Shown here in pieces: positions 5,114 through 35,822 of a stretch of 35,822 bases of DNA. The stretch is taken from positions 1 to 35,822 of the forward strand of contig JAENWD010000124.1 in the NCBI GenBank assembly GCA_016650245.1. The letters run 5' to 3'. This DNA is from Vicinamibacteria bacterium. GTDB taxonomy: Bacteria > Acidobacteriota > Vicinamibacteria > Vicinamibacterales > JAENWD01. The notes below the pieces were generated by a model. It worked only from the letters and a program-made list of their open reading frames with translations, had not been told where the DNA came from and made no database searches. The translations under genes were made by a program, and so were the position numbers. How positions within the stretch are numbered: the first letter of the stretch is position 1; every line of letters starts with the position of its first letter.

Positions 5114-5170
5114 CTCCAACCCGACCGAACCCGACCCAACATGGCCGAACCTGATCAACCCGACCGAACC
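5114..5170. repeat. Degenerate 9/10-bp repeat array (AACC-type)
   Basis: CTCCAACC CGACCGAACC CGACCCAACA TGGCCGAACC TGATCAACC CGACCGAACC. Confidence 0.8.
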
Positions 5171-10483: not shown

Positions 10484-10546
10484 CAACCCGATCAACCCGA
10501 CCAACCCGACCAACCTGACCAACCCGACCAACCCGATCAACCTGTC
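10484..10546. repeat. Seven tandem 9-bp repeats CAACCYGAY filling the korB-ndk gap
   Basis: CAACCCGAT CAACCCGAC CAACCCGAC CAACCTGAC CAACCCGAC CAACCCGAT CAACCTGTC, then AT-ATG of ndk. Confidence 0.95.
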
Positions 10547-10962: not shown

Positions 10963-11060
10963 CATTGACGATTGCCGATTGACGAGTGACGATTACGCGT
11001 GGCCCGGCACCTGTGCTAATCCGCGTATAATCTGCAATCGTCAATCTACAATCTGCAATG
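10963..11060. repeat. Inverted array of 7-bp units (GATTGNN / NNCAATC) filling the ndk-DUF2905 gap
   Basis: Left CATTGACGATTGCCGATTGACGAGTGACGATTACGCG; reverse complement of right arm CATTGCAGATTGTAGATTGACGATTGCAGATTATACGCG. Confidence 0.95.
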
Positions 11061-11256: not shown

Positions 11257-11286
11257 CAACCTGTCCCAACCTGACCCAACCCGTTC
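11257..11286. repeat. Three 10-bp repeats in the dcd leader
   Basis: CAACCTGTCC CAACCTGACC CAACCCGTTC, then CC-ATG. Confidence 0.85.
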
Positions 11287-11843: not shown

Positions 11844-11878
11844 ATTGACGACTGCAGAGTGACGAGTGCAGATTGGGA
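11844..11878. repeat. Five 7-bp units after dcd
   Basis: ATTGACG ACTGCAG AGTGACG AGTGCAG ATTGGGA starting immediately after the dcd TGA. Confidence 0.8.
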
Positions 11879-11924: not shown

Positions 11925-11962
11925 ATCAACCAGCCCCAACCAGCCCCAACCAGTCCAAACCA
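11925..11962. repeat. 10-bp repeats in the hisS leader
   Basis: CATCAACCAG CCCCAACCAG CCCCAACCAG TCCAAACCAG, then TTTC-ATG. Confidence 0.85.
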
Positions 11963-13323: not shown

Positions 13324-13351
13324 AATCGTCAATCCGCAATCTGCAATCGTC
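13324..13351. repeat. Four exact-phase 7-bp repeats directly before the aspS start
   Basis: AATCGTC AATCCGC AATCTGC AATCGTC AAT-ATG; a related AATCCGC overlaps the hisS 3' end. Confidence 0.93.
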
Positions 13352-13354
13352 AAT

Positions 13355-30796: not shown

Positions 30797-33571
30797 ATGG
30801 CAAAGAAGCTCGCGAAGAAGAAGGCAGTGAAGAAGGCAGTGAAGAAGACGACCAAAGCCAAGGCGAAGAAGTACGTGTACTTCTTCGGCGGCGCCAAGTC
30901 CGACGGCGATCGCAGCTTGCGCGACCTGCTCGGCGGCAAAGGCGCAAATCTCGCCGAGATGGCCAACGCCGGCTTGCCCGTCCCCCCGGGATTCACCATC
31001 ACGACGACCGCCTGCATGCTGTGGTACGACAACGGCCGCAAGTTGACGCCGGCGATTGAAGCCGAGATGGAGAGCCACGTCCGCAAGCTGGAGAGGACTG
31101 CCGGCCTCACGTTCGGCTCGACGAGCAACCCCTTGCTGGTGTCGGTGCGCTCGGGCGCGAAGTTCTCGATGCCCGGCATGATGGACACCATCCTCAACCT
31201 CGGGCTCAACGACCAGGCCGTCGAAGGGCTGAAGAAAAAGACCGGCAACGGCCGCTTCGCCTACGACAGCTACCGCCGCTTCATCCAGATGTTCGGCAGC
31301 GTCGTGCTCGAGATCGGCAAGGATCAGTTCGAGCACGCGTTCGAGGCGATCAAGCACGCCCACGGCGCGGCGACCGACACCGACCTGGGCGAGGACGGCT
31401 TGAAGGAGACCGTCCAACGCTACAAGGCGCTCGTCAAGAGCAAGACCGGCAAGCCGTTCCCGCAGGACCCGTTCATCCAGCTGCGGGGCGCGCGTGACGC
31501 GGTGTTCCGCTCCTGGAACAACGATCGCGCGAAGACGTACCGCCGCCTGTACGAGATTCCGGATCACATCGGCACGGCCGTCAACGTGCAGCAGATGGTG
31601 TTTGGCAACACGGGCGACCGGTCGGCCACCGGCGTTGGCTTCACGCGCAACCCGGCAACGGGCGCCAACGAGTTCTTCGGTGAGTTCCTCGTCAACGCCC
31701 AGGGCGAAGACGTCGTCGCCGGTGTCCGCACGCCGCTGCCGATCGCCGAGCTCGAGAAGGTGATGCCGAAGGCCTACAAGGAGCTGCGCACGATCACGTC
31801 GCGACTCGAGAGGACCTACCGCGACATCCAGGACTTCGAGTTCACGATCGAGGAAGAGAAGCTCTACATGCTGCAGACCCGGAACGGCAAGCGGACCGGG
31901 TATGCGTCGGTGGTCATCGCCACCGACTTCGTGAAGGAGAAGCTGCGCTCGCCCAAGGACGCGCTGCTGCTGGTGGAGCCGGCGGCGCTGTCGCAGCTTC
32001 TCTCGCCGGTCTTCGATCCGAAGGCGTGGAAGAGGCTGCCGACGGCCACCAAGGGCCTGCCGGCCTCGCCGGGCGCCGCGTCGGGTCAGGTCGTCTTCAC
32101 CGCGGACCACGCGGTCACGTGGGCGCAGAAGGGCAAGAAGGTGCTGCTGGTCCGCAAGGAGACGGTGCCCGATGACATCCACGGCATGGAAGTGGCTGAG
32201 GGCGTGCTCACGGCCACTGGCGGCATGACGTCGCACGCCGCGGTCGTCGGCCGCCAGATGGGCAAACCGTCCGTCGTGGGAGCCGGTGCGCTGGTGGTCA
32301 GTGAGAAGGACAAGTCGGTGACGGTCGGCGGCCACACGATCAAGGAGGGCGACTGGCTGTCGTTTGACGGCCTCACCGGCGAGGTGAAGCTGGGCCAGGT
32401 CGCGACCCACCCGAGCGAGATCCTCCAGGTGCTCGACGGCAAGATGAATCCGAAGGACTCGGACATCTACCAGCGCTTCCACCAGCTGCTGGGGTGGGCC
32501 GACAAGGTGCGCACGCTGGGCATCCGCGCCAACGCCGACCTGCCGGACCAGGCCGAGCTGGCCTACGCCTTCGGCGCGCGCGGCATCGGGCTGTGCCGTA
32601 CCGAGCACATGTTCTTCGGCGAGGGCCGCATCGAGAAGGTGCAGCAGATGATCCTCGCCGACAACGAGGCCGACCGCCGCAAGGCCCTCGACGCCCTGCT
32701 GCCGCTGCAGCGCGCCGACTTCTACGGCGTGTTCAAGGCGATGCACGGCGAGCCGGTGACGATCCGCACCATCGATCCGCCGCTCCACGAGTTCCTGCCC
32801 AAGCGCGAAGACCTCATGGTCGAGGTCGCCCGGCTCGAAACGGCTGGCAAGGGCGGCCACGAGCTTCAGGAGAAGAAGACCCTGCTGGCGCGCGTCGAGC
32901 AACTCCACGAGTTCAACCCGATGTTGGGCCACCGCGGCGTGCGTCTGGGCATCACGTATCCCGAGATCACCGAGATGCAGGCGCGCGCGATCTTCGAGGC
33001 GGCCGCGCAACTGAGCAAGGAAGGCCTGAAGGTCGTCCCCGAGGTCATGATCCCGCTGGTCGGACTGGTCAAGGAGCTCAGGGACCAGAAGGCCATCGTA
33101 GACCGTGTGGCCAGAGACGTCATGAGAGAGCAGGGCGTCAAGTTCAAGTACCTGGTCGGGACGATGATCGAGGTGCCGCGCGGCGCTGTCACCGCCGACC
33201 AGATCGCGACCGAGGCGCAGTTCTTCTCCTTCGGGACCAACGACCTCACGCAGCTCACATTCGGGTTCTCGCGTGACGACGCGGGCAAGTTCCTCGGCGT
33301 CTACCAGGAGCGCAAGATCCTGGAGCGCGATCCGTTCCAGTCGATCGACACGGTCGGCGTCGGACAGCTCGTGGCCATGGCGTGTGAAAAGGGCAGGAAG
33401 GTCCGGCCGGATCTGAAGCTCGGTATCTGCGGCGAGCACGGCGGCGACCCGTCGTCGGTGCACTTCTTCCACAAGGTGGGGCTCGACTACGTGAGCGCCT
33501 CGCCATACCGCGTGCCGGTGGCGCGACTTGCGGCCGCCCACGCAGCACTCAGCGTTAAAGTCGGCGACTAG
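30797..33571 (+). CDS. ppdK: Pyruvate, phosphate dikinase
   Basis: KYVYFFGGAKSDGDRSLRDLLGGKGANLAEMANAGLPVPPGFTITT...TGGMTSHAAVVGRQMGKPSVVG...GICGEHGGDPSSVHFFHKVGLDYVSASPYRVPVARLAAAHA. Confidence 0.97.
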   Translation: MAKKLAKKKAVKKAVKKTTKAKAKKYVYFFGGAKSDGDRSLRDLLGGKGANLAEMANAGLPVPPGFTITTTACMLWYDNGRKLTPAIEAEMESHVRKLERTAGLTFGSTSNPLLVSVRSGAKFSMPGMMDTILNLGLNDQAVEGLKKKTGNGRFAYDSYRRFIQMFGSVVLEIGKDQFEHAFEAIKHAHGAATDTDLGEDGLKETVQRYKALVKSKTGKPFPQDPFIQLRGARDAVFRSWNNDRAKTYRRLYEIPDHIGTAVNVQQMVFGNTGDRSATGVGFTRNPATGANEFFGEFLVNAQGEDVVAGVRTPLPIAELEKVMPKAYKELRTITSRLERTYRDIQDFEFTIEEEKLYMLQTRNGKRTGYASVVIATDFVKEKLRSPKDALLLVEPAALSQLLSPVFDPKAWKRLPTATKGLPASPGAASGQVVFTADHAVTWAQKGKKVLLVRKETVPDDIHGMEVAEGVLTATGGMTSHAAVVGRQMGKPSVVGAGALVVSEKDKSVTVGGHTIKEGDWLSFDGLTGEVKLGQVATHPSEILQVLDGKMNPKDSDIYQRFHQLLGWADKVRTLGIRANADLPDQAELAYAFGARGIGLCRTEHMFFGEGRIEKVQQMILADNEADRRKALDALLPLQRADFYGVFKAMHGEPVTIRTIDPPLHEFLPKREDLMVEVARLETAGKGGHELQEKKTLLARVEQLHEFNPMLGHRGVRLGITYPEITEMQARAIFEAAAQLSKEGLKVVPEVMIPLVGLVKELRDQKAIVDRVARDVMREQGVKFKYLVGTMIEVPRGAVTADQIATEAQFFSFGTNDLTQLTFGFSRDDAGKFLGVYQERKILERDPFQSIDTVGVGQLVAMACEKGRKVRPDLKLGICGEHGGDPSSVHFFHKVGLDYVSASPYRVPVARLAAAHAALSVKVGD

Positions 33572-33574
33572 CTA

Positions 33575-33690
33575 GGCTGGTTGGGTCTGGTTCGGTCGGG
33601 TTGGGTCTGGTTCGGTCAGGTTGCTTGCAACCTGTTCAACCGACTCCAACCCGGCCCAACCTGATCGAACCTGGCCCAACCGGGTCAACC
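33575..33690. repeat. Inverted array of ~10-bp AACC units filling the ppdK-corA gap
   Basis: Left GGCTGGTTGGGTCTGGTTCGGTCGGGTTGGGTCTGGTTCGGT, centre CAGGTTGC-TT-GCAACCTG (33617-33634), right CAACCGACTCCAACCCGGCCCAACCTGATCGAACCTGGCCCAACCGGGTCAACC. Confidence 0.93.
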
Positions 33691-33693
33691 TCA

Positions 33694-34668
33694 GTGATTA
33701 CTGTCTTCGTTCATCGTGATGGCAGAACCGAGTCGGGGTCGGAGCTCGATCCCGCGCTGCTGGATCCCGCCAGCGGGGCGAAGGTGTGGGTGGACCTGGC
33801 GGCCGCGACCGAGGCGGAGCTGCGGATCCTCCCGGACGTCTTTCACTTCCATGCGCTGGCGGTGGAGGACGCCGTCGCCTCGCTGCACCATCCAAAGATC
33901 GAGGCCTATGACGGCTATCTGTATCTGATACTGCACGGCATCGATTACCAGAAGTCGCGCGACCAGGAATCGTTCATCACGCACGACACCGACTTCTTCC
34001 TCGGACCCAATTACCTGGTCACGATCCACGACGGTCAGGGGCGCAGCATCACCGGCATCCAGGAGGTGTGCGGGCGCAACGACCACGTGCTCGGCGAAGG
34101 ACCTGGGGCGCTGATGCACCGGATCATCGACCGGATGGTCGACAACTACCGGCCCGAGATCGAGCAACTCGAGAAGTGGCTCGACGAGCTCGAACGGGAC
34201 GTCTTCGGCGTGCCGCGCAAGGAGACAGTGCGCGAGATTCTGTCGGTGAAGCAGGACGTCACGGCCTTGCGCCGCATCGCTACACCACAGCGCGATGCGA
34301 TCGGCCGCCTGGCGCGCCGCGAGTTCCCGATGATCGCCGAAGAGCTGACCTACCGCTTCCGCGATGTCTACGACAACCTTGTGCGGATCGCCGACGAGGG
34401 GCTGATCTTTCAGGACCGCATCACCAGTCTGCTCGACGCGCACTACTCGAACGTGTCGAACCGCCTCAACGAGATCATGAGGGTGCTCACGGTGATCACC
34501 GTGATCGTCTCGCCGCTCACGCTGGTGGCAGGCATCTACGGCATGAACATGAAGCTGGCGATGGTGGGGAGCGATAGCGATCCGCGCCCTTTCTGGTGGC
34601 TGCTCGGCGGCATGGTGGCCACCGTCGTCATCATGTTGGGATTCTTCCGGAAGAAGAACTGGCTCTGA
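33694..34668 (+). CDS. corA: Magnesium/cobalt transporter CorA
   Basis: GTG start; VITVFVHRDGRTESGSELD...C-terminal YGMNMK motif (GIYGMNMKLAMVGSDS). Confidence 0.95.
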   Translation: MITVFVHRDGRTESGSELDPALLDPASGAKVWVDLAAATEAELRILPDVFHFHALAVEDAVASLHHPKIEAYDGYLYLILHGIDYQKSRDQESFITHDTDFFLGPNYLVTIHDGQGRSITGIQEVCGRNDHVLGEGPGALMHRIIDRMVDNYRPEIEQLEKWLDELERDVFGVPRKETVREILSVKQDVTALRRIATPQRDAIGRLARREFPMIAEELTYRFRDVYDNLVRIADEGLIFQDRITSLLDAHYSNVSNRLNEIMRVLTVITVIVSPLTLVAGIYGMNMKLAMVGSDSDPRPFWWLLGGMVATVVIMLGFFRKKNWL

Positions 34669-34832: not shown

Positions 34833-35822
34833 ATGCCGAAGATCCATCGTCTTTCCGTCGAGCTCGCCAACCAGATCGCGGCAGGCGAGGTCGTCGAGCG
34901 TCCGGCCTCCGTCGTCAAGGAGCTCGTCGAGAACGCCATCGACGCGGGCGCGCGGCGAGTGACCGTCACCGTCGAGTACGGCGGCAAGCGCCTGGTCAGA
35001 GTGGAAGATGACGGCGAGGGGATGGAGCCAGACGACGCGGAGCTGGCACTGGAGCGGCACGCGACGAGCAAGATCAGGACGAGCACCGACCTGGCGGCGA
35101 TCGCGACGCTGGGCTTCCGCGGCGAAGCGCTGCCGTCGATTGCGTCGGTGTCGCACGTGACGCTGCGAACCCGCGCCCGCGGGGCGATGAGCGGCACCGA
35201 GATCAAAGCCCACGGCGGCGTCATTGGGTCGATCACGGAAGTCGGTGCGCCGGAAGGAACGCGGATCGACGTCGAGGATCTGTTCTACAACCTGCCCGCC
35301 AGACGGAAGTTTCTCAAGTCGGACCAGGCCGAGTCCGCCCAAGTGTCACGCATCGTCACGCAACTGGCGCTGGGCGCGCACGACGTCGGGTTTTCCCTGG
35401 TGAGCGGCGGACGGCGCGTGCTCGAATGCCCACCCGCCGGCAGCCGGCGCGAGCGGCTGTTTCAGATTTACGGGGATTCCAGCGACCTGCTCGAGGCCTA
35501 CAAGGAGACGGCCGGCATCCGCGTGGTGGGCTACATCGCGCCGCTGGCCGAGACCGGCCCCAGGCGTGGCCCGCAGAACGTCTTCATCAACGGCCGGCTG
35601 GTGCGCGACAAGACGATCGCGCATGCCATCGGCGATGCCTACAGCGTCGCGTCGATAAAGGAACGCAGCCCGGAAGTGCATCTGTTCATCGAGATGCCGC
35701 TCGATGCGCTCGACGTCAACGTGCATCCGACCAAGGCCGAGGTGCGCTTCCGCGAGCAGTCGCTGATGCACGAGGTGATTCGCCGGGCCGTCGGTGATGC
35801 CCTCGGCCAGGGCCCCGCGCCG
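34833..35822 (+). CDS. mutL: DNA mismatch repair protein MutL, N-terminal part (runs off window end)
   Basis: MPKIHRLSVELANQIAAGEVVERPASVVKELVENAIDAGARRVTVTVEYGGKRLVRVEDDGEGM...HATSKIRTSTDLAAIATLGFRGEALPSIASVS...FYNLPARRKFLKS. Open at the window edge, hence missing from the ORF track. Confidence 0.96.
   Translation, partial: MPKIHRLSVELANQIAAGEVVERPASVVKELVENAIDAGARRVTVTVEYGGKRLVRVEDDGEGMEPDDAELALERHATSKIRTSTDLAAIATLGFRGEALPSIASVSHVTLRTRARGAMSGTEIKAHGGVIGSITEVGAPEGTRIDVEDLFYNLPARRKFLKSDQAESAQVSRIVTQLALGAHDVGFSLVSGGRRVLECPPAGSRRERLFQIYGDSSDLLEAYKETAGIRVVGYIAPLAETGPRRGPQNVFINGRLVRDKTIAHAIGDAYSVASIKERSPEVHLFIEMPLDALDVNVHPTKAEVRFREQSLMHEVIRRAVGDALGQGPAP

Follow-up and report, generated by a model that had tools for sequence, protein, structure and literature searches.

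The entire gap between the pyruvate phosphate dikinase gene ppdK and the magnesium-transporter gene corA is occupied by an inverted pair of tandem short-unit arrays, as read directly from the 35,822-nucleotide stretch of Vicinamibacteria DNA analysed here (the window; contig C124 of a 4.26-Mb genome with kin in the Vicinamibacterales). The pair covers 112 bases (33579–33690), with five GGTT-sense units followed by seven AACC-sense units (Table 1). In our interpretation, a dispersed, non-coding tandem-array element is present here in inverted form and sits in an operon junction. The overall explanation we put forward, tentatively and with close to even confidence, is that this element folds into a hairpin in the read-through ppdK–corA mRNA and decouples the two genes; the decoupling hairpin as such we consider likely but unproven.

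The ppdK stop codon (TAG, 33569–33571) is followed by CTAGGCT and then by the first full GGTT core, the left-arm cores lying at 33579, 33589, 33599, 33609 and 33619. The original prediction had the array begin 3 nt after the stop, which is correct only when a degenerate GGCT is counted, since the first full GGTT comes 7 nt after it. The predicted 3-nt distance to corA was confirmed: the right arm ends at 33690 and is followed by TCA and the GTG at 33694. The cores, the central palindrome (CAGGTTGC-TT-GCAACCTG) and the spacings were recovered on re-reading the sequence, and the gene identities given for ppdK and corA agree with their Pfam matches. The proposed 10-mer unit held in part, as ten-mers are present but nine-mers are intermixed. 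One clear internal 20-bp duplication is found within the left arm, and the second unit of the right arm is special (GACTCC; GGAGTC on the other strand), as is typical of inverted copies. No Shine–Dalgarno sequence was found for the corA start, and no Rfam family matched at the gathering score anywhere in the window. Downstream of corA lies a gene for a MutL-type mismatch-repair protein (34833–35822; Pfam).

Table 1. Coordinates of the junction array, its flanking genes and related arrays in the window
Feature	Position	Strand	Basis
Direct array; called stop 15 nt upstream, ATP-grasp/CoA-ligase gene (succinyl-CoA synthetase beta type) 87 nt downstream	5118–5170	+	Sequence, Pfam
Direct array, seven 9-mers; stop 2 nt upstream, ndk 6 nt downstream	10485–10542	+	Sequence, Pfam
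Direct array, three units; DUF2905 gene stop 5 nt upstream, dCTP deaminase gene 7 nt downstream	11258–11281	+	Sequence, Pfam
Direct array of four units, before hisS	11928–11961	+	Sequence, Pfam
ATTGACG/ATTGCAG seven-mer arrays	10964–11059; 13330–13354; 11846–11872		
ppdK (pyruvate phosphate dikinase), upstream gene	30797–33571	+	Pfam PPDK_N, PEP-utilizers, PEP-utilizers_C
Left arm, five GGTT-sense units of period 10 (AACC units on the minus strand)	33579–33622	−	Sequence
Central palindrome, meeting point of the arms	33617–33634	.	Sequence and fold
Right arm, seven AACC-sense units (spacings 9, 10, 10, 10, 10, 9)	33629–33690	+	Sequence
corA (Mg2+ transporter family), GTG start 3 nt past the array	33694–34668	+	Pfam CorA (E 2.6e-67), gene call

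The junction array belongs to a family dispersed through the genome. A 27-mer array pattern matched 190 times, compared with 8 times in the control, and 55 arrays were detected in 457 kb of the genome versus 0–2 in Markov-simulated sequence. Gene context was established for 64 array loci in 778 kb, and the genome holds at least 17 inverted loci; all genome-wide statistics refer to these 778 kb, whose contigs were partly picked for containing arrays, and contigs C220, C245 and C270, which read as N, were excluded from all counts. The majority of copies are direct arrays lacking a hairpin partner, among them the four related arrays named in the original prediction, which are real and built from the common unit family. 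Written in GGTT sense, the unit is either GGTT[G/C]GGNCR (226 ten-mers) or GGTTGRTCR (74 nine-mers). Position 8 of the ten-mer is free, position 10 is mostly a purine with A and G equally frequent, and positions 6, 7 and 9 carry one base in 88–95% of cases, GGTT itself being required for detection. Neighbouring units are barely more alike than units elsewhere (0.58 versus 0.51), a small excess which indicates that the arrays were not freshly duplicated throughout. The core motifs of integron attC sites are GTTRRRY and RYYYAAC; a likeness to attC was dropped because the flanking genes are not cassettes.

Arrays of the GGTT/AACC family hug stop codons. Boundaries within 15 nt were found at 49 of 58 gene ends versus 16 of 48 gene starts (p = 9e-8), with genes called by a home-made hexamer finder whose single starts may be off, and the first unit often provides the stop codon of the gene (GGTTGA or CCTGA). 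The arrays are depleted between divergent genes and their inverted copies prefer convergent gaps (p < 0.01, gaps of at least 40 nt), the ppdK–corA copy, between co-oriented genes, being among the exceptions. Where neighbouring genes share an orientation, direct arrays are about equally sense and antisense, which rules out a strand-specific translation leader (CAACC before starts). Inverted copies always run GGTT then AACC (14:0 within 150 bp), and the reverse pattern had no match. Most of them also share a centre, in which a nine-mer beside the loop is followed by a special ten-mer that resembles GATGCT on one arm and GRNRTC on the other, and this conserved centre points to common descent as an element. 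No target-site duplication was seen by eye at a few inverted elements; insertion as such is suggested by comparison with distant relatives. On contig C58 (8513–8610), two AACC-array arms enclose an ordinary terminator-like hairpin (GGGCGGC...GCCGCCCTTTTGTTTT) as their loop, as though they had expanded on either side of an existing terminator.

Arrays of other short units are common in this genome and across the order. Intergenic autocorrelation peaks at 7 and 10 bp in the window genome, at 7 bp in relatives G003 and G058 and at 8 bp in G031, and intergenic arrays with units of 7, 8 or 10 bp are present in several genera. In a part of the window genome unselected for arrays, short-unit blocks occur in 38 of 167 gaps, and in 11 of these gaps the block also has an inverted partner, compared with 0 in the control; the corresponding figures are 30 of 73 (5 inverted) for G003 and 28 of 129 (9 inverted) for G031, and a small control of 22 gaps from E. 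coli contained none. A second family, of ATTGACG/ATTGCAG seven-mers, is likewise stop-hugging and inverted, and it shares the layout and the fixed polarity (7:0); it has 126 pattern matches in the window genome and is thinly represented in 22 of the order's 86 genera. Further families in the window genome include TCAGCCT, GAAGGCT, AAGTGCA, CTCGTAA and AACCCGT, while G031 contains intergenic eight-mer arrays such as GTCCAGGG, GCCCACCC and GCAATGGG, some of them inverted between convergent genes. For annotators, this means that about one-fifth of sampled intergenic gaps in the window genome contain short-unit arrays, which can provide stop codons and occupy ribosome-binding positions.

The GGTT/AACC unit itself is narrowly distributed, occurring in 3 of 162 genomes of the order including this one; the two others (G031 and G020) are from one genus and have one inverted copy each, with the same polarity. 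A scan of 85k species genomes, a collection that may omit the window's own genome, revealed several loci in only one other genome, also of this order, and together these counts rule out a wide taxonomic spread. Gene order at the junction is far more widely shared, with corA directly after ppdK in 28 of the 29 relatives whose corA locus was read. The two genes overlap by 4 nt in 8 relatives and are separated by at most 8 nt in four more; the gap in G031 is 4 nt, which rules out an AACC array there. Five relatives carry inverted arrays of unrelated seven-mers in the gap (GGCTTCR in G056 and G028, GGCTCAR in G015, GTCTCAA in G003 and AGAAGTC in G058) and two carry direct seven-mer arrays (G002 and G037), in both cases significant against shuffles, and the remaining long gaps hold ordinary hairpins. 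The array of G015 is followed by TTTTTTT, and some arrays may thus double as intrinsic terminators. The junction has thus been filled more than once and with differing units, which suggests a recurring build-up of repeats at gene ends. Across the order the junction takes several forms: overlapping genes, a plain hairpin, a terminator-like hairpin with a T tail, or inverted arrays whose units differ. Such a natural series could be used to ask if arrays decouple adjacent genes and by what route inverted arrays originate.

The long hairpin proposed for the junction is well supported by folding. The wider segment folds at −80.7 kcal/mol, compared with −49.1 ± 3.9 for dinucleotide shuffles (z = −8.06, 0 of 200), and the array alone forms 45 pairs, 4 of them G-U, at −74.3 kcal/mol. 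The original prediction was to fall if the genome held no other inverted arrays and the junction no structure; this strong fold and the at least 17 inverted loci, which bear out the expectation of more inverted AACC arrays elsewhere, speak for it. Stop-codon hugging, the fixed inverted polarity, the conserved centre and the other inverted arrays at the relatives' junctions go beyond what it had claimed. Among inverted elements, the order of nine- and ten-mers is matched between arms, with reordering making the fold weaker in 10 of 11, and the arms also match in length, or spacing register (p = 0.02, 14 elements). No compensatory changes beyond the consensus were detected, as native arms pair no better than permuted ones (p = 0.44, 14 elements). 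Arm pairing stems from shared consensus and matched spacing, and selection for the hairpin is unsupported because compensatory changes are lacking.

Since the array fills the gap, it would be transcribed as part of a read-through ppdK–corA mRNA, unless corA is driven from within ppdK. In such an mRNA, a long stem would fold just before the corA start, where it could end translational coupling of the two genes, shield the ppdK mRNA end and damp corA, by analogy with REP/BIME hairpins near stop codons. Supporting this reading are the stability of the fold, the placement at gene ends and in convergent gaps, the fixed polarity, the conserved centre, the matched order of nine- and ten-mers, the state of the junction in relatives and the lack of promoter- and terminator-like sites; the missing compensatory changes and the predominance of direct arrays without a hairpin partner speak against it. 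The arms would grow by slippage and spread by copying or by fold-back template switching, and arrays would be kept mainly where the 3′ flanks of genes tolerate them.

A serious rival to this decoupling explanation, and a realistic possibility if short of a probable one, is neutral or selfish build-up, in which slippage, fold-back copying and gene conversion act where sequence is free, mostly past stops, and leave a functionless hairpin. Strand-neutral placement of direct arrays, the frequent provision of stop codons by the repeat itself and the absence of compensatory changes are all consistent with it, as are the many units of 7, 8 or 10 bp within one order and their turnover at the ppdK–corA junction. 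Less easily accommodated are a unit whose conservation depends on position, just three being free, and the combination of fixed polarity, mirrored spacing and a conserved centre, which is more order than plain drift would give, although one ancestral element could supply some of it. A bolder proposal, which we regard as unlikely, is that an active, dedicated process in the Vicinamibacterales repeatedly builds inverted, lineage-specific arrays of 7–10-bp units at gene 3′ ends, their long hairpins replacing coupled operon junctions, independently in several families at ppdK–corA, with the unit recognised or written by a specific protein. If real, such a protein would explain both the conserved and free positions of the unit and its fixed polarity.

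Transcription termination, which the original prediction had suggested looking for, was not borne out, in that neither a terminator-like site (stem plus T-run) nor a promoter-like site was detected at 33400–33900. An intrinsic (Rho-independent) terminator consists of a G+C-rich stem and then a T-run; here the stem is present and the T-run is missing, which rules out this class, and the array is not a classical terminator. A transcription terminator in a broader sense, possibly bidirectional, would fit the strong hairpin directly after the ppdK stop, the preference of inverted copies for convergent genes and the seven T that follow the inverted array of G015. However, with only 3 nt between the array and corA, a terminator here would switch corA off unless the gene had a promoter inside ppdK; as the array fills the gap, a corA promoter would have to sit inside ppdK or inside the array itself. 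As a T-tract is missing and the gap leaves no space for a corA promoter, the terminator reading is unsupported and improbable. The terminator-like hairpin at C58:8513, an ordinary one with T-runs, occupies the loop between two array arms, so the arms there are not the terminator. We considered it more improbable still that the GGTTSGGNCR strand acts through DNA or RNA quadruplexes at which polymerase or ribosome would pause, a mechanism proposed for the GGGNATC repeats of Xanthomonas. Motif counts do show a clear family-wide enrichment of predicted quadruplex potential, with three-tetrad motifs in 34 of 76 arms (10 expected after shuffling), two-tetrad motifs in 70 (41 expected) and 43 of the 81 three-tetrad motifs of the sample falling in arrays. 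Yet this potential is weak in the window copy, whose arms carry only two-tetrad motifs; the G pattern is interrupted by nine-mers, and conservation extends to the TT and to the C at position 9, which a quadruplex does not require. Nor can it explain the ATTGACG family, which shares the genome, layout and polarity and is devoid of G-runs.

Short-unit arrays dispersed near stop codons are on record for a few bacteria; among the papers searched, none dealt with such arrays in Vicinamibacterales. The TAACTGA repeats of marine Beggiatoaceae are similarly dispersed, short-unit and intergenic, some overlapping stops and abutting starts, but they mostly point to start codons, with no predicted fold and one inverted case (PMC4679880), whereas arrays in the window genome hug stops in a strand-neutral manner, with inverted pairs frequent among them. 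In enterobacteria and pseudomonads, REP/BIME elements are likewise dispersed, non-coding extragenic hairpins near stop codons that are transcribed by read-through (here, presumably so), and REP elements located no more than 15 nt from a stop codon are reported to reduce translation and to stall ribosomes (PMC12306157). With 64 loci read in 778 kb and no fewer than 17 inverted loci, the present arrays resemble them as multi-copy extragenic elements with paired inverted forms; in place of a palindromic 14–40-nt unit, however, they have tandem, non-palindromic 9–10-bp units that become palindromic only as paired arrays, with arms of 30–80 bp and often only one arm. REPs linked to a Y1 (RAYT-type) transposase gene were ruled out, as no arrays adjoin the three Y1_Tnp genes of the window genome, an incomplete assembly. 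The best precedent is the GGGNATC heptamer family of Xanthomonas, described together with GGGGAYT of Nostoc (Rehm et al. 2015, PMC4692102): its arrays are mostly intergenic, near or overlapping stop codons and rare between divergent genes, with quadruplexes proposed and with nearby arrays paired in convergent orientation as potential stem-loops (70 pairs in Xcc, 75 in Xac; PMC4692102). The arrays described here share the G-rich short units, the intergenic location within 50 bp of stops, the rarity in divergent gaps, the inverted pairs and the quadruplex potential. Unlike the Xanthomonas repeats, they are built from a 10- or 9-bp unit (GGTTSGGNCR rather than GGGNATC) with mainly two-tetrad potential, they belong to a different phylum, their inverted copies have a conserved centre, and their host carries further families without G-runs.
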